Part shown: piece after piece, positions 2,982 to 14,783 of the stretch
Position numbering within the stretch: the first letter of the stretch is position 1
Layout: each line of letters begins with the position of its first letter
From: a virus
DNA length: 27,595 nucleotides
IMG/VR virus record: IMGVR_UViG_3300032311_000142
Location: 1-27,595 of that record
Direction: 5' to 3' (one strand)
Translations under genes and position numbers: made by a program
The notes under the pieces: generated by a model
Databases searched by the model: none
Told to the model about the DNA's origin: nothing
The model's input: only the letters and a program-made list of their open reading frames with translations

Positions 2982-4550
2982 ATGGACTTTTCAAAGTTTT
3001 CTACTAAAGACTTAGAATACCTTAAAGCACAAAGTTTAGATAAAGTTTCTACAGATGGACTTAGTGAATTACAAAGACAGTTATCTGGTGTGCCAGCTAA
3101 CGTTACTGATCAAAGTGTTCCATATGATCTTTTAATTCCTCCAGAACAAAGAGTTAAGCCAACTGAACCTGCTATTAAAAAACCACAAACAACACTTGAT
3201 AGAATTCCTATTCTAAGAGAAGCTGTAGGTGCATTTGATGCTGCAGTAGGTGCAGTAAGTCCAATTGTAACTGCTCCAGTAGGTGCTTATTATGGGTTAG
3301 CTAGGCAAGGTATTGGTGGCATTACAGGTAATCAATATGCTCCAGATGCTGAACAAGCTATGTTAAAAGGAATGGATACAACTGCATATAGGCCATCAAC
3401 TGAAATTGGTCAAAAGGCAATGGAAGGCTTAGGTAATGTTTTAGAGGCATCTAAACTTGCTCCTACTCCAATGATGGGAGTTGTTCCTTCACAAATACCT
3501 GCTAAAACATTATTTGGTGCTAATCCAAAATCATTAGAATTTTCTGCTACACCAATTAAATTACCATTTACTAAAGCTCCATTATATGTTCCTACAGTTG
3601 CATCTAAATTATTTAAAGAATCAAAAGTAAATTTAGGTGCTATACCAGAGCAAGAGTTTTTCCAGCAACAAGCTACTAATCTTTTTAATCAAGCACAAAG
3701 TGAAGGCATTACATTAAAGAAAAATGTATTCCAAGCTAACATGAAAAACTTGCCATCAAGATTAAGACAAGAAGGATATACTCCTAGCGGTAACTTCCCA
3801 GACGTTAATGCTGCTATTAAAGAACTTACATCTGGAAAACAACCTGTAGACTTTACTGAAATTCAATCATTACGCACTATGATTAAGAATGGTCAAGCAT
3901 CTATTAATGCTAATGAAAGACGTATTGCTACAAGATTATTAGATGAGTTTGATGATTACATGGCCAATATGCCTGTAAGAGATATTAAGATTGGTAACAA
4001 AGAAGCACTTAAGACATGGCAAGAAGCTCGTGATAGTTATGCTAAATTTAAGAAGTCTGAAATATTTACAGATATGCTTGATGAGGCTCAACTTGATCGC
4101 ACTAAATATACACAAGCTGGCACAGAAAATTCATTAGCTAAACAAATGAGGCAGTTAGCTAAAAATGAAAAACGTATGCGTTTATTCTCTAAGGGTGAAC
4201 AAGATGCAATTATTGAAGCAGCAAAAGGTAGTGATTTACAACAAACACTTAAATTTGTAGGTAAATTTGCTCCAACCTCTACTGTATCTGCATTGCCAAC
4301 ACTAGCTATTGGTGCAGGTGATGCTGCATCTGGAGGTATGTTTGCTGCAAGTGCATTAGCTGGTCGCATGGGTGCTACTAAGATGCGTGAAGGTGCTATT
4401 AAAGACCTTGCTAAGTTTATGAGAAGTGGATTGCCTAATAGATATAATGTGCAACCTAGAAACTTAAATCTTATTAATACTGGTACAGGATATGGTATTC
4501 CACAAGGTCTATTAACAGATTATATGATTAATCCAGAGGAACAAAAGTAA
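2982..4550 (+). CDS. Putative DNA-ejection/internal virion protein (P22 gp16-like position)
   Basis: 522 residues, starting 2 nt after the previous stop. Residues ~75-115 hold a hydrophobic Gly/Ala segment (GAFDAAVGAVSP, GAYYGLARQGIGG). The middle is helical and charged. Around residues 415-470 the segment KFAPTSTVSALPT is followed by a Gly/Ala-rich stretch with GGMFAASALAGRMG. The combination 'LG(R/K)FAPT then an Ala/Gly-rich membrane-like helix near the C-terminus' is one I associate with phage DNA-transfer proteins that leave the virion and line a channel through the envelope. No lytic transglycosylase motif is evident. The stop overlaps the next start as TAATG. The role is inferred from these features and from the three-gene block it closes. 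Confidence 0.5.
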   Translation: MDFSKFSTKDLEYLKAQSLDKVSTDGLSELQRQLSGVPANVTDQSVPYDLLIPPEQRVKPTEPAIKKPQTTLDRIPILREAVGAFDAAVGAVSPIVTAPVGAYYGLARQGIGGITGNQYAPDAEQAMLKGMDTTAYRPSTEIGQKAMEGLGNVLEASKLAPTPMMGVVPSQIPAKTLFGANPKSLEFSATPIKLPFTKAPLYVPTVASKLFKESKVNLGAIPEQEFFQQQATNLFNQAQSEGITLKKNVFQANMKNLPSRLRQEGYTPSGNFPDVNAAIKELTSGKQPVDFTEIQSLRTMIKNGQASINANERRIATRLLDEFDDYMANMPVRDIKIGNKEALKTWQEARDSYAKFKKSEIFTDMLDEAQLDRTKYTQAGTENSLAKQMRQLAKNEKRMRLFSKGEQDAIIEAAKGSDLQQTLKFVGKFAPTSTVSALPTLAIGAGDAASGGMFAASALAGRMGATKMREGAIKDLAKFMRSGLPNRYNVQPRNLNLINTGTGYGIPQGLLTDYMINPEEQK

Positions 4551-4759
4551 TGTCTAACGAAATAGATCCAATACAATATGGCCAACTAATAGCACAGGTT
4601 AGAAATTTGCAAGACAAAGTAGACAGCATGGAAACAGATATAAAATCTCTTCTTGAATTAGCTAATAAATCAAAAGGTGGCTTTTGGGCTGGTATGGCCA
4701 TTGCCTCTGCTATTGGTGGTTTTATAACGTTTATTGTTAATCATTGGATGGGTAAATAA
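4550..4759 (+). CDS. Small coiled-coil plus single-TM protein, holin-like
   Basis: 69 residues. Residues 8-42 form an amphipathic heptad-like helix (QVRNLQDKVDSMETDIKSLL). This is followed by SKGGFWAGMAIASAIGGFITFIV, a single membrane helix at ~46-66, and a short basic tail. This arrangement is common in small proteins encoded near phage lysis genes and is sometimes annotated as a holin or holin partner. The start is coupled to the previous stop (TAATG), with AGAGGA upstream. A classical three-TM holin candidate lies 2.1 kb downstream (6892-7392), so this one may be a second holin, an antiholin or a virion-associated protein. Membrane topology is seen; lysis role is inference. Confidence 0.55.
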   Translation: MSNEIDPIQYGQLIAQVRNLQDKVDSMETDIKSLLELANKSKGGFWAGMAIASAIGGFITFIVNHWMGK

Positions 4760-4760
4760 T

Positions 4761-5255
4761 ATGAGAATATTATCATGGGTAACTATAATAATACTTGTAC
4801 TATTTTTAATTCATAATGCACACGCTGATACAACTACGATCAACTATAAAGGCCAACCTCCTCCTAGTGCTATTAGCCCTTCTATAAGTGCTTTTAGCCA
4901 AGACGTTTGCATTGTTCCTGTTAGTGGTTCTGTATCCAGTACATTATTTGGTGTAAGTGGTGGCTCTGGCTATAAAGATTTAAACTGTGAACGTATTAAA
5001 TTAGCTAAAACTCTTAATGACTTAGGTCTTAAAGTTGCAGCAGTATCTATTCTTTGTCAAGATGATAGAGTATTTGAAGCCATGATACAGTCAGGTTCAC
5101 CATGCCCTATCAATGGTTCTATTGGTGATGCTGCTAAACGTGGCTGGTATGAACGTAACCCTTCTATATTTAAGAAACTATATGGCGATACATACACGAT
5201 ACCGCTTGTTGCTGACGAGCCTATTACTACTTCTATCACTAACAAAGGCAAATAA
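4761..5255 (+). CDS. Exported Cys-containing protein of unknown function
   Basis: 164 residues from the ATG at 4761, one base after the previous stop; an in-frame codon at 4734 would overlap the TM gene and disrupt the signal peptide. Residues 1-22 are a signal peptide (MRILSWVTIIILVLFLIHNA, cleavage near HADT). The mature part has four cysteines (VCIVPV, DLNCERIKLAK, SILCQDDRVFEAM, GSPCPING) suited to two disulfides, and a conserved-looking core around NCERIKLAKTLNDLGLKVAA. I recall similar small periplasmic proteins in environmental phages near endolysin genes but know no function. Its last 74 nt also encode the start and signal peptide of the next gene in another frame. Confidence 0.65.
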   Translation: MRILSWVTIIILVLFLIHNAHADTTTINYKGQPPPSAISPSISAFSQDVCIVPVSGSVSSTLFGVSGGSGYKDLNCERIKLAKTLNDLGLKVAAVSILCQDDRVFEAMIQSGSPCPINGSIGDAAKRGWYERNPSIFKKLYGDTYTIPLVADEPITTSITNKGK

Positions 5256-6270
5256 TGCTTATGCTTGGTATTGCAACTATACTCCAACACCTGAAGGCTA
5301 TATGCTTCAAGGTTCTCTCGTATGTAATGGCATTGATCCAATCATTGCAATTAAAGATTATTGGTGCGTATCTTATAACCCAAGCGACCCAATATGTGGT
5401 GCGTATCAAGCTCCTACTTGCTCAGACTTGGTTGAAAATCAAACTACAGCTTGCACGTTACCTCACTATAGCGGTGCTATTAATCAAAGCAGGACTTTTA
5501 ATTGTACTGCAAACGCTTGGTCAGCTTGGACAGAAACTAGCAATAATTGCACACAAGATCCTCCAACGTGCCAAGCAAGTGTTGAAACTAGACAGTTAGC
5601 CTGTCAAGCAGACTATGTAGGGTCTATTACAGAAACAAGAATGTCATCTTGTCCAGATCCTTATAACCCATCTATATGGGGTACTTGGGTAGAAACATCT
5701 AATTCATGTGTTAAGTCTGCTACAAACGTTACTAACGTATCTTCACCAGTTAGTCCTAGCAGTCCACTTAACCCTGTAAATAATCCACCTCCTGTTGTTG
5801 CACAGCCACCTCCTGCTGCACCAGAGGTTAACCCATTGGCTTCGCCACCACCTCCTGATCCTCCTAAGGTAGAGTCAGCTCCTCCTAAGGTTGAACAACC
5901 AAAACAGGAAACTAAAAGTGAGCCAAAAGCAAAAGAAGATAGCCCAAAAGATACACCAAAAGCAGAACAAAAGAGTGAGAGCAAAGAGAATCCTAAACTT
6001 GACGTACCAAAAGGTAAAGAACTTGTGCATGGTTTTGGAATAGTCCTTTCACTAGAAATACTTAACAAACCTATTATAAACCAAATTGAACTAACAGACG
6101 CTTTTAAATTTGATCAGGAACTTAATAATGACTTTGGAAAAAACGAAAACTTTAAACTTGAGCTTTTCCAGCTCTCAACTCCTCAAGATGCTTTTATTGG
6201 TTCTGCCAATAGTAGCTGGAGGAGCTTACGCAGGGATAACTTTTTACAACAAGATGGTTACGGCAATTGA
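5182..6270 (+). CDS. Exported Cys-repeat and Pro-rich protein, possible periplasm-spanning
   Basis: 362 residues from the ATG at 5182, chosen because it gives a clean signal peptide (LLLTSLLLLLSLTKANNAYA, cleavage before WYC at ~28). Further upstream in-frame codons only add improbable residues. Two Cys-rich modules of a thrombospondin-like look follow at ~91-123 and ~141-176, sharing the pattern GxI...R...C...W..W.ETSN.C. Residues ~190-275 are a Pro-rich then Lys/Glu/Pro-rich linker of the TonB kind, able to cross the periplasm. The C-terminal ~85 residues look globular. Both ends overlap neighbours in other frames, by 74 nt at the 5' end and 143 nt at the 3' end. A surface-adhesion, envelope-spanning or lysis-related job is possible; none is demonstrated. 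Confidence 0.65.
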   Translation: MAIHTRYRLLLTSLLLLLSLTKANNAYAWYCNYTPTPEGYMLQGSLVCNGIDPIIAIKDYWCVSYNPSDPICGAYQAPTCSDLVENQTTACTLPHYSGAINQSRTFNCTANAWSAWTETSNNCTQDPPTCQASVETRQLACQADYVGSITETRMSSCPDPYNPSIWGTWVETSNSCVKSATNVTNVSSPVSPSSPLNPVNNPPPVVAQPPPAAPEVNPLASPPPPDPPKVESAPPKVEQPKQETKSEPKAKEDSPKDTPKAEQKSESKENPKLDVPKGKELVHGFGIVLSLEILNKPIINQIELTDAFKFDQELNNDFGKNENFKLELFQLSTPQDAFIGSANSSWRSLRRDNFLQQDGYGN

Positions 6271-6535
6271 AGCTGTAGACAGCTTAGACTTAGCTCCTAT
6301 AGAATCTAAAATTAGTGGTTTAGAAATACAAGTTAAATCCATTAACGAAAGACAATATCAAATATCAGAGTCTATTATGAAGGCTAGTGAAAAATCTTCA
6401 GATGCTATTGCTAACTCTCGTGAAACTGCAGCTATGGTAAGTGGCCTAAGAAAAGAATTAGAAGCTACTGTTAATGCTATGGATGATAAGTTAAATACAG
6501 TTAAACGTTCAACCATGAATCCATTGTCCAAATGA
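6128..6535 (+). CDS. Inner-membrane anchored coiled-coil protein, i-spanin-like topology
   Basis: 135 residues from the ATG at 6128, which has AGGAA 7 nt upstream; an in-frame codon at 6110 lacks a ribosome site. Residues ~22-42 form one membrane helix (LLKMLLLVLPIVAGGAYAGI) after a short Lys-containing N-terminus. This implies N-in topology with the rest in the periplasm. Residues ~60-130 are a long heptad-type helix. This resembles inner-membrane spanins (Rz), although it could also be a virion-associated or superinfection protein. The first 143 nt lie inside the preceding gene. The next gene starts in its stop codon (ATGA). Topology is seen; the spanin idea is inference. Confidence 0.6.
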   Translation: MTLEKTKTLNLSFSSSQLLKMLLLVLPIVAGGAYAGITFYNKMVTAIEAVDSLDLAPIESKISGLEIQVKSINERQYQISESIMKASEKSSDAIANSRETAAMVSGLRKELEATVNAMDDKLNTVKRSTMNPLSK

Positions 6536-6891
6536 CATTTATTACAGAGAACAATATAGCTAATCTATATTCAGCTCTGATAGAAATGCCTGTGTTTGAC
6601 GAATATAAATTACCACCAGCATCTAAAGTAGATTTTGTCATAATTAATGAGATAGATATATGTGGCCAGTATGAGCCACCAGAGTCAGGCGATCCTCATG
6701 TTATTACTATAAGCGTAGCAAGGCATTCTCATTTATATCCTGTTTTAATCACACTCTGCCATGAGATCATACATATGTGTGTTTATTTAGATTCACCTAA
6801 AACAGAACAGTATACAAGTCATAAAGGTTTGTTCTTAAAATTACAAAAGCGTGTAGCCAATACATTTGGCTTTGACCCAAAGGAGTTATAA
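6532..6891 (+). CDS. SprT-like zinc metalloprotease domain protein
   Basis: 119 residues. HEIIH at residues 77-81 is the HEXXH zinc-protease signature, with Glu78 the expected catalytic base. A candidate third ligand, His97, lies in TSHKGLFLKLQKRV, matching the 'HG..F' helix that follows HEXXH in SprT-like and related minimal gluzincins. There is no signal peptide, so it would act in the cytoplasm unless packaged. It overlaps the upstream gene by ATGA and ends directly before the holin-like gene, with AAGGAG in its own tail serving that gene. The target is unknown. Maturation of virion proteins or cleavage of a host protein are both possible. Confidence 0.7.
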   Translation: MTFITENNIANLYSALIEMPVFDEYKLPPASKVDFVIINEIDICGQYEPPESGDPHVITISVARHSHLYPVLITLCHEIIHMCVYLDSPKTEQYTSHKGLFLKLQKRVANTFGFDPKEL

Positions 6892-7392
6892 ATGTTTAGT
6901 ATTATTTCAGGTATATTAGGTTTTGCTACTAGTGGGCTTCCAAGTCTATTAGGATTCTTTCAGCAAAAAGGTGACCAAAAACATGAACGTGAAATGGCTC
7001 AATTACAGAATCAACAAGCATTACTTATGGCTGAAAAAGGTTTTGTATCACAAGAAAAGATTGCAGCTATTGAATTAGAAGGAACGTATGCAGAAACATA
7101 CGCACAAGAACGTGAAGCATTATATGCACATGACGCTAAACTTGTAGAAGGTGCATCACAATGGGTAAAGACTTTAAACGCTTGTGTAAGACCATTTGTA
7201 GCATTTACATTTGTAGGTTTACTTGTATTTGTAGACGTAGCAGGTTTTATATGGGCTGTTAAATCTACAGGTGGATTTACTCCAGAGGCTATGGATACTA
7301 TATTTTCTAGTGAAGAGATGTCAATTGTAGCATCTATTATTGGTTTTTATTTTGGCTCAAGAACTTGGGAAAAGAAACGTGAAAGCGTCTAA
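6892..7392 (+). CDS. Holin, three-TM family (GTA_holin_3TM-like)
   Basis: 166 residues. A weakly hydrophobic N-terminal helix (~1-23) is followed by an amphipathic, charged helix (~25-90). Two clear membrane segments come at ~100-122 (RPFVAFTFVGLLVFVDVAGF) and ~143-157 (SIVASIIGFYFGSRTWEK). The RPFVA entry and the FYFGSR-Trp exit are typical of the 'holin of 3TMs' family described from gene transfer agents. It would form the membrane lesion that releases the endolysin. It begins 6 nt after AAGGAG and its stop overlaps the GTG-started endolysin gene by 14 nt, the usual holin-endolysin order. Confidence 0.8.
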   Translation: MFSIISGILGFATSGLPSLLGFFQQKGDQKHEREMAQLQNQQALLMAEKGFVSQEKIAAIELEGTYAETYAQEREALYAHDAKLVEGASQWVKTLNACVRPFVAFTFVGLLVFVDVAGFIWAVKSTGGFTPEAMDTIFSSEEMSIVASIIGFYFGSRTWEKKRESV

Positions 7393-7828
7393 AGAGGCAA
7401 TACGTTTAATAAAACATCATGAAGGTGTAAGAAACAAACCATACCAGTGTCCCGCAAAACTGTGGACAGTAGGAATTGGTCATTTGATTGGTGATGGCAA
7501 AACATTACCGCCTGAATGGAACAAAATTTTTACTAATGAGGAAATAGATGGACTTCTTGCAGCAGACCTCAATCGCTTTGAGTTGGGAATATCTAAGATG
7601 TTACCTAACGTGCAACTTAAGCAGCATGAGTTTGATGCTCTTGTTAGTTTTTGTTTTAATCTTGGCTTGGGATGCTTTCAGCGTAGCACCATTCGTCAAG
7701 CATTATTACGAGGCGATAAAGAACAAGCTATGGAGTCGCTAATGAAATACTGTAGGGCTGGAGGAAAGATTTTGCGTGGCCTTGAGAACAGACGCAAAGA
7801 TGAAAAAAGGCTCTTTGAAGGGTTATAA
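7379..7828 (+). CDS. Endolysin, GH24 muramidase with E-C-T catalytic set
   Basis: 149 residues from the GTG at 7379 (preceded by GGGAAAAG), giving the usual MKASKEAI start; a TTG at 7340 would add 13 residues inside the holin gene. It is a T4/P21-type lysozyme that cleaves the N-acetylmuramic acid bond of peptidoglycan. The catalytic Glu15 (HHEG), Cys24 (QCPA) and Thr30 (WTVGIGH) have the family spacing E-8-D/C-5-T. Cys stands where T4 lysozyme has Asp20. Cys is tolerated at that position and occurs naturally in the family. FNLGLGCFQRST and GLENRRKDEKRLF match conserved helices of the C-terminal lobe. There is no signal-anchor segment, so export depends on the holin. Confidence 0.93.
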   Translation: MKASKEAIRLIKHHEGVRNKPYQCPAKLWTVGIGHLIGDGKTLPPEWNKIFTNEEIDGLLAADLNRFELGISKMLPNVQLKQHEFDALVSFCFNLGLGCFQRSTIRQALLRGDKEQAMESLMKYCRAGGKILRGLENRRKDEKRLFEGL

Positions 7829-13372: not shown

Positions 13373-14104
13373 TTATACAAGTCTACCACTAAATTGATAA
13401 GTACCTGTGTGTCCTAGTTGAGCCCATGCTGCACCCCAAACTTTTATACCATTATCACGAGCTAATTTACAGAAATGATAATCTTCACTTAATAAATGAT
13501 TTTGCTCATCTATGCTAGTGGTAAAATATTCTGTAATCTTATCACCCATATTTGAATTGTCATTAACATCATTCATATTATGTTTATAAGATGGACATTT
13601 ATCTTTTAACTTTTCAAATACCTCACGTTTAATTAACATAAATCCAGTACCGCCATGTTTAATTTCAAATGGTTTATCTAATGGCACTAACTGTGACTTA
13701 ACATCGCCAACCATGTTTACTACATACTCACCTGTAAAATATTTTAGTTGATCCTGTGGCACTTTCTTTTCAATAGCATAAGCCACACCACCCCAGTTAA
13801 TTTCTTTTTTAGGGTACAGGCCACATATAATTTCTACGTCAGAATCAATCATCTTTAATAAATGCTGTGCTTCAAATTGAATGTCAGCATCAATAAACAT
13901 TAAGTGTGTAGCATCGCCCTTTAAGAAGTCATTCACCAAAGTATTGCGACCTCTAGTAATAAGGCTTTCATTATAAAGAAATGAAAAGTATGCCTCTATG
14001 TCTTTAGCATTTAGCCATGCTTGCAGTTTAAGCATAGATTCTAGATAAGTACCATAACATAATCCACCATACATAGGTGTTGCAATAAATAAATTTGTTT
14101 TCAT
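13373..14104 (-). CDS. Glycosyltransferase-like protein (GT-A fold)
   Basis: 243 residues. It begins TNLFIATPMYGGLCYGTY, has RGRNTLVNDFL at ~51-61 and the metal/nucleotide-sugar motif LMFIDADIQF with Asp72-x-Asp74. These are features of GT-A family transferases. The region IICGLYPKKEINW and the GFMLIKREVFEKL strand also fit. It would move a sugar from a nucleotide donor to an unknown acceptor. An AAGGAAG ribosome site and ATGA overlap link it to the upstream lipoprotein gene. With FkbM and the two oxygenases it forms a likely glycan or protein modification set. Confidence 0.75.
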   Translation of the reverse strand: MKTNLFIATPMYGGLCYGTYLESMLKLQAWLNAKDIEAYFSFLYNESLITRGRNTLVNDFLKGDATHLMFIDADIQFEAQHLLKMIDSDVEIICGLYPKKEINWGGVAYAIEKKVPQDQLKYFTGEYVVNMVGDVKSQLVPLDKPFEIKHGGTGFMLIKREVFEKLKDKCPSYKHNMNDVNDNSNMGDKITEYFTTSIDEQNHLLSEDYHFCKLARDNGIKVWGAAWAQLGHTGTYQFSGRLV

Positions 14105-14238
14105 TTAACTTCCTTTTGTTTTTCTTTATAAACGTCTATAGCTTTATTAGTAATAACAGTTGATGCAACATTTAACGCAATGTCTGCACATCCACTAATG
14201 CCCAATAGGATAAAGATTACTATTATATTTTTTAACAT
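14101..14238 (-). CDS. Small lipoprotein
   Basis: 45 residues. The N-terminus MLKNIIVIFILLGISGC is a lipoprotein signal ending in a lipobox (ISGC, lipidated Cys17). The mature part is only 29 residues (CADIALNVASTVITNKAIDV then a charged KEKQKEVK tail), forming one amphipathic helix. Size and topology resemble outer-membrane spanin subunits (Rz1), although Rz1 proteins are often Pro-rich and this is not. The gene overlaps the upstream 77-residue gene by 44 nt and shares ATGA with the glycosyltransferase. It is two genes downstream of a SleB-like wall hydrolase. Confidence 0.65.
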   Translation of the reverse strand: MLKNIIVIFILLGISGCADIALNVASTVITNKAIDVYKEKQKEVK

Positions 14239-14428
14239 TAGTTACCTTAATAATATTTTTTGTATCTGGAATTAATGGGATAATGGTTACATTATGTAAT
14301 TTAGATTTTAAATCTTTAAACCAAGACATTTCTGTTGGCTCTGAAGTCATCAGTCCAGACCATACAAGTGCACCTGTACTATCATATTCTTCCACTAAAA
14401 ATGCAATTGGCTTAGTCACAGAATACAA
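14195..14428 (-). CDS. Small protein, unknown
   Basis: 77 residues if read from the TTG at 14428, 74 from the GTG at 14419. AGGAAGG lies 1 nt from the TTG and 10 nt from the GTG, so the start is uncertain. It has a beta-rich pattern (KPIAFLVEEYDSTGALVWSG, NVTIIPLIP) and no motif I can name. It overlaps the SleB-like gene by 17 nt upstream and the lipoprotein gene by 44 nt downstream. Function unknown. Confidence 0.5.
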   Translation of the reverse strand: MYSVTKPIAFLVEEYDSTGALVWSGLMTSEPTEMSWFKDLKSKLHNVTIIPLIPDTKNIIKVTNVKKYNSNLYPIGH

Positions 14429-14783
14429 GCCTTCCTATTTTAATATTACAGTTTTTCCATCCAGTTGGTGTTGAAATACTATCATCATAAAAATGTAATT
14501 TTTTAGGTACAGGATTTTTATATTTATTAAATACAATGGCATCAACTGCTAATGATTTAATTTCAAGATAACGTTTCTTATCAACTTCATCATGAGATGT
14601 ATCTGTTATTCCTTGAAACTGTCCCTCAGCGTAAGAAACCTCACACGAGTCCTTTCCATACCCTGCCTTAATGCGTTGACGTATAATATTCATAACAGCA
14701 ATAATTTCTTGCTGAGTTCCTGCTTCATGGTATGCAGCGTGTGCATAACAACTCATGTACAAATCTAGTGTATTAATGTCCAT
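14412..14783 (-). CDS. SleB-like cell wall hydrolase (Hydrolase_2)
   Basis: 123 residues. The motif AAYHEAGTQQEIIAVMNIIRQR places catalytic Glu20 in the 'EA' motif of the SleB/CwlJ family. CEVSYAEGQFQGI (47-59) is the conserved 'CEVV...GQFS' element and KKLHFYDD (~95-101) the late 'YFH' strand. These enzymes are N-acetylmuramyl-glucosamine hydrolases or lytic transglycosylases, known from spore germination and also found in phages. There is no signal peptide, and the domain is short but complete. It lies on the early strand, away from the holin-endolysin pair, next to a small lipoprotein. It may be a second lysis enzyme or a wall-remodelling protein. Confidence 0.8.
   Translation of the reverse strand: MDINTLDLYMSCYAHAAYHEAGTQQEIIAVMNIIRQRIKAGYGKDSCEVSYAEGQFQGITDTSHDEVDKKRYLEIKSLAVDAIVFNKYKNPVPKKLHFYDDSISTPTGWKNCNIKIGRLVFCD

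Follow-up and report, generated by a model that had tools for sequence, protein, structure and literature searches.

What kind of system is formed by three consecutive phage genes that run into one another through out-of-frame overlaps encoding the targeting signals of the downstream products? The question is raised by a stretch of 27,595 nt (hereafter the window), whose gene content, including an SU10-type portal, is that of a tailed phage. The original prediction took the three products to be exported or membrane-anchored proteins that could together span the envelope, possibly as an unconventional spanin. We find that the genes belong to a module whose order is conserved in very distant phages, and we tentatively read it as a spanin-like device for the last step of lysis.

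Gene layout and dual coding

The reading frames of the three genes (A, B and C), their starts and both overlaps are as originally proposed. Together with their neighbours they are arranged as follows:

4550..4759, plus strand: P, 69 aa, coiled coil and C-terminal transmembrane (TM) helix in an XhlA-like layout (ORF, hydropathy)
4761..5255, plus strand: A, 164 aa, ATG at 4761, exported
5182..5255, plus strand: A/B overlap, 74 nt, with the B signal peptide out of frame with the A tail
5182..6270, plus strand: B, 362 aa, ATG at 5182, signal peptide
6128..6270, plus strand: B/C overlap, 143 nt, encoding the C N-terminus and TM helix
6128..6535, plus strand: C, 135 aa, ATG at 6128, N-in TM anchor and periplasmic coiled coil
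6532..6891, plus strand: S, weakly SprT-like (Pfam SprT-like, E 0.012, under the cut-off)
6892..7392, plus strand: H, holin-like (weak matches to GTA_holin_3TM and to the holin family phrog_3427)
7352..7828, plus strand: E, endolysin (Pfam Phage_lysozyme, 9.7e-36)

The gene for P, which has weak family matches only, immediately precedes the trio, and the order XhlA-like gene, trio, weak SprT-like gene, GTA_holin_3TM-like gene and phage lysozyme is that of the window's family; S adjoins C in these relatives, and the homologue of H in Mosig clears the Pfam cut-off. Judging from the local sequence, E more plausibly starts at GTG 7379, inside H, and its overlap with H would then be 14 nt instead of 41 nt; a TTG further 5' would lengthen it. 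This pair excepted, the remaining neighbour genes between 322 and 8594 overlap by 0-4 nt.

The overlaps of the trio are nearly constant in the window's family. In the measurable loci from two IMG/VR scans for relatives (80 loci each, many from the same contigs), the B/C overlap is always 143 nt, with the single exception of L079 (179 nt), and the A/B overlap is 65, 71 or 74 nt. Overlaps of 74 and 143 nt also occur in ctXG6705 from Manatee Spring, the closest relative with a name, whose A is 88% and B 65% identical to those of the window; A and C are both missing from the annotation of this phage. On synonymous recoding of 39 distinct sequences, the B tail stays open in 0.15% of trials when C is recoded, and the A tail in 12% when B is. 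At amino-acid-conserving positions of these sequences, the synonymous rate is 0.13 in the A tail, 0.10 in the B head, 0.09 in the B tail and 0.22 in the C head, against 0.31-0.51 in the non-overlapping parts of the three genes (codon-resampled p <= 0.0012 in each case); pS falls from 0.30-0.46 outside the overlaps to 0.13-0.23 inside them. The strong suppression of synonymous changes in both overlaps shows that both frames code and are maintained, and the overlaps do not arise by chance. Taken by itself, the B tail has a pN/pS near 1, a value that says little about B because the constraint from C limits its silent sites. A Shine-Dalgarno-like motif 5' of the C start (mostly AGGA or CGGAG) is conserved in the same 39 sequences.

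Elsewhere, the B/C overlap is mostly 8 nt in pelagiphages and absent in some marine members, and long versions are limited to the window's family and isolated cases such as the Maricaulis contig L243 (137 nt); A/B overlaps carrying the B signal recur in further lineages. The long overlaps are therefore lineage features and not the essence of the module, so the weight first placed on them does not carry over to the module at large. Absence of the overlaps together with unlinked proteins had been named as evidence against a joint function: the overlaps can indeed be absent, but the genes remain linked.

A conserved trio of envelope proteins

Signals on A and B and a TM helix in C bear out the expectation of three exported or anchored proteins. 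In A, an N-terminal hydrophobic export signal is followed by a four-cysteine helical domain (~residues 48-130; helical domain in the AF2 model at pLDDT ~85, residues 70-144) with the pattern C..D..C-x22-C..C, GxKVxA and LCQD that marks the A-domain family. This family spans at least 598 IMG/VR stretches and, in the genome collection, 23 loci that come almost entirely from metagenome assemblies. Its homologues, mostly over the cysteine domain, are encoded by the Pelagibacter phages HTVC115P, HTVC033P, HTVC023P, HTVC202P, Baldr and Mosig, the Roseobacter phages CRP-810 and CRP-207, a Votkovvirus and two Manatee Spring phages. Neither A1 nor A3 matched a solved structure by sequence, and the model of A returned no reliable fold (PDB Foldseek only at E > 1; VIA-align best Z 2.6); its BFVD matches are mostly unnamed or uncharacterised phage proteins. 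Achromobacter phage phiAxp-2 encodes a lone A-domain protein (L261 44598-45155, minus strand) that has neither B nor C as a neighbour; it adjoins an exported repeat-rich protein (45216-45710), away from the late genes.

B has a signal peptide ending in NNAYA before W, 12 Cys and 40 Pro, and comprises a Cys-rich beta domain (~80-180), a Pro/Lys/Glu linker and a conserved C-terminal segment from ~280. Its AF2 model is mostly of low confidence (N-domain pLDDT ~70-89; linker and C-terminus below 50), and a fold search with it gave no reliable match (VIA-align best Z 4.1 over 43 residues). Profile comparison detected no homology between the window B and the marine B, which are thus equivalent by place and layout only.

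C has a single TM helix from residue 21, with a net charge of +2 before and -2 after it, and a remainder of coiled-coil type as judged from sequence without a dedicated predictor. It weakly matches Rz-like spanins (phrog_312, E 0.025; phrog_739, E 0.09) and ends in NPLSK. This tail is almost invariant in relatives as NPL or NPM: an NPL-ending ORF lies downstream of A within 2.6 kb in 53 of 64 loci, and slightly farther in several more, as against 0 of 76 upstream of A and 1 of 64 antisense. In an alignment of 27 diverse C proteins only the N-P-L near the C-terminus is invariant; these proteins were chosen by that ending, and hence the weight of the motif rests on the control counts and not on the alignment.

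The same pattern, a domain-level A homologue, then an exported B, then a coiled-coil C of N-in topology, is kept in each of the Pelagibacter and Roseobacter phages listed above and in the Votkovvirus. It extends over podo-, sipho- and myo-like Pelagibacter phages, Roseobacter phages and hundreds of IMG/VR contigs, from both ocean and freshwater, where its parts are annotated mostly as hypothetical or under unrelated names (TonB, OmpA, lysozyme). In 67 distinct IMG/VR loci of the Roseobacter-type lineage, the exported B overlaps A in all 57 testable loci (38-182 nt, depending on the start), and C ends in NP[LMI] in 55 of 55. Conservation of the order in such distant phages sustains the idea that the three proteins belong together across the envelope. 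HTVC019P, which is without the trio (L254 38973-39547), and HTVC115P, which has it (L136 6995-7562), share an N-in coiled-coil protein that lacks the NPL tail and precedes a small protein hydrophobic at its N-terminus; the two are possibly another envelope pair.

A pattern scan found no lipobox in A or B of the window, and lipoproteins of two kinds bear on the comparison with relatives:

14101-14238, minus strand: the single lipobox ORF detected in the window, 45 aa (MLKNIIVIFILLGISGC...), 7.6 kb from the trio
L173 3314-3475, L186 501-662, L189 4756-4914 and others: lipoproteins of 51-69 aa (LSACSVGKKC...NC), directly beside A in other pelagiphage contigs

The former has no Pfam match and adjoins a possible cell-wall hydrolase gene (14412-14783, minus strand); ctXG6705 has a gene annotated as a lytic transglycosylase in its early region. 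In CRP-810, CRP-207 and ct7L0027, a small lipoprotein (<=86 aa) with the C-x22-C domain lies directly upstream of A (the CRP-810 version weakly matches phrog_20531, E 0.0069), and of the 63 Roseobacter-type loci that could be tested, at least 55 have an A-type C-x22-C lipoprotein directly 5' of A. Some pelagiphage A proteins carry a lipobox themselves. Small lipoproteins are modestly enriched near A (0.037 per kb, against 0.017 far from it on the same strand and 0.002 antisense). The simple pattern search recovers lambda Rz1, Bor and T7 18.7 and found no credible lipoprotein in the genomes of ctXG6705, HTVC202P and Baldr or in the trio-less control pelagiphages HTVC010P and HTVC019P, with false negatives possible as it missed the CRP-207 lipoprotein. 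We rejected the notion that the trio phages are simply those devoid of lipoproteins, as the controls lack them and some trio phages have them. Likewise, the absence of an ordinary spanin does not single out trio phages, given that HTVC010P and HTVC019P are without the trio and without lipoproteins alike.

Possible roles at the envelope

An envelope-spanning complex is suggested by the constant order, the anchor with its fixed tail, the exported partners and the A domain's recurrent occurrence in an outer-membrane form. A role in the outer-membrane step of lysis appears likeliest: in the window the trio is grouped with the holin-like gene and the endolysin gene, and many pelagiphage loci place a cell-wall hydrolase close to it (an amidase in phages of the HTVC033P type, an M15 peptidase in those of the HTVC023P type); holin-like genes also adjoin it in Mosig and the Votkovvirus. 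Hence, with a confidence somewhat short of even, we favour the reading that A, B and C form one spanin-like complex acting in the last step of lysis. C would sit in the inner membrane with its N-terminus in the cytoplasm, its coiled coil crossing the periplasm as an inner-membrane rod and its C-terminal NPL tail docking on a partner. A would be a small disulfide protein on the periplasmic or outer-membrane side, and in some relatives A or an adjacent paralogue is lipid-anchored in the outer membrane. The N-terminal domain of B would bind an envelope component, with the long extended linker acting as a bridge. After the action of the holin and endolysin, the complex may collapse and join the membranes. 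Counted against a lysis role are the distance of the endolysin from the trio in CRP-810, HTVC202P and HTVC115P, in keeping with an adjacency to holin and endolysin genes that is not universal among relatives, and the DNA polymerase gene near the trio in several loci. The lone A domain in phiAxp-2, the lack of a function-assigning fold match, the want of detectable homology between the window B and the marine B and the absence of a lipoprotein near the window trio also count against the spanin-like reading.

Part of the same evidence would suit a remodelling of the envelope during infection, whereby the trio alters the cell surface or the periplasm, by excluding superinfection, masking receptors or controlling holin timing from the periplasm as an antiholin would, and does not disrupt the outer membrane. 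Such a role would accord with the export of A and B, with a weak match of the marine B to the carbohydrate-binding family PF02018 (6 of 23 members, best E 0.0057), with trios placed near DNA polymerase and not lysis genes, and with the solitary phiAxp-2 domain away from the late genes. We consider it unlikely, given that the trio lies within the lysis or late-gene cluster in the window and several lineages and that a receptor mask would not be expected to include a coiled-coil, N-in anchor whose tail is invariant.

We give still less credence to adhesion or aggregation by A and B secreted to the surface or carried on progeny, as suggested by the long Ser/Thr/Asn-rich N-terminal stretches of the marine A proteins and the adhesive look of the cysteine repeats of the window B. 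C ties the set to the inner membrane, and cleavable signals are unusual for virion proteins. Curli secretion genes are known in HTVC023P-type and Pelagibacter myophages (PMC9599517), which would favour adhesion, but A, B and C match no curli or adhesin family in Pfam (E up to 1 for curli) or NCBIfam, with the caveat that phage CsgA/B are reported to be short and divergent (PMC9599517); a curli identity of A finds no support in these family searches. Just as improbable is genome compaction alone, with three independent exported proteins kept by operon structure and overlaps that save space: the restriction of the long B/C overlap to few lineages and the drift of spanin architecture elsewhere between overlapped and separated (Kongari et al., 2018; PMC6139136) would allow it, but the order holds in podo-, sipho- and myovirus-like genomes whose surrounding genes otherwise differ, and B is swapped for an apparently unrelated sequence with the same layout in the same place.

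The trio among known systems

Pfam, NCBIfam and PHROG assign no function to A, B or C beyond the weak Rz-like matches of C. None of the papers found by searching for pelagiphage or roseophage spanins gives a description of the module, and those on HMO-2011-type phages and CRP-810 name lysis genes and no spanin. The spanin-like reading bears on a question posed by Kongari et al. (2018; PMC6139136), in whose survey no spanin was recognisable in about 13% of the phage genomes: these authors ask how such phages disrupt the outer membrane, naming other anchors or topologies as a possibility. The trio, recurring in SAR11, Roseobacter and freshwater phages, is a concrete candidate. It is conceivable, if somewhat unlikely, that it represents a new spanin class, with which aquatic phages would disrupt the outer membrane by a machine of three or four parts; its outer partner would not have to be a lipoprotein, its inner-membrane anchor would dock by an invariant NPL tail, and some phages now counted as spanin-less would then have one. 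With the module named and its docking tail open to testing, culturable phages of Roseobacter or Pelagibacter allow this question to be approached directly.

Among described families, PHROG 20531 contains the A-type cysteine domain (the match of A, E 4.7e-11, covers only the C-terminal part of that family) and is itself unnamed, with no assigned role. The phage curli (type VIII secretion) genes likewise encode exported products and share some phage groups with the trio, but those of Pelagibacter phages are different genes by their description (PMC9599517). With unimolecular spanins of the T1 gp11 type the trio would share the bridging of both membranes; in contrast to these, no trio protein of the window combines a lipobox with a C-terminal TM helix, as A and B have neither at the threshold used.

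The closest parallels are with two-component spanins (PMC6139136). C, like an i-spanin, is a type II inner-membrane protein with a single N-in TM helix and a periplasmic coiled coil; as in Rz/Rz1, the gene of an exported partner is overlapped, here along >100 nt that also encode a targeting signal; and in the window and its family the trio occupies a lysis-cassette position, with H and E following C. There are also differences: the anchor gene lies downstream of its exported partners A and B, whereas the i-spanin comes first in Rz/Rz1 and 18.5/18.7, as seen in the lambda and T7 genomes; there are three proteins and not two; B has 362 aa with a folded domain of its own; and C bears the invariant NPL tail. 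With no lipoprotein nearby and the gene order reversed, the window trio is not a two-component spanin as defined, and the spanin membership originally suggested as a possibility, which the lack of a C-terminal TM helix in B further weakens, is not supported for the window; the trio may nevertheless work like a spanin. The linked outer-membrane lipoprotein that marks an o-spanin, missing from the window, is present in the Roseobacter-type relatives.
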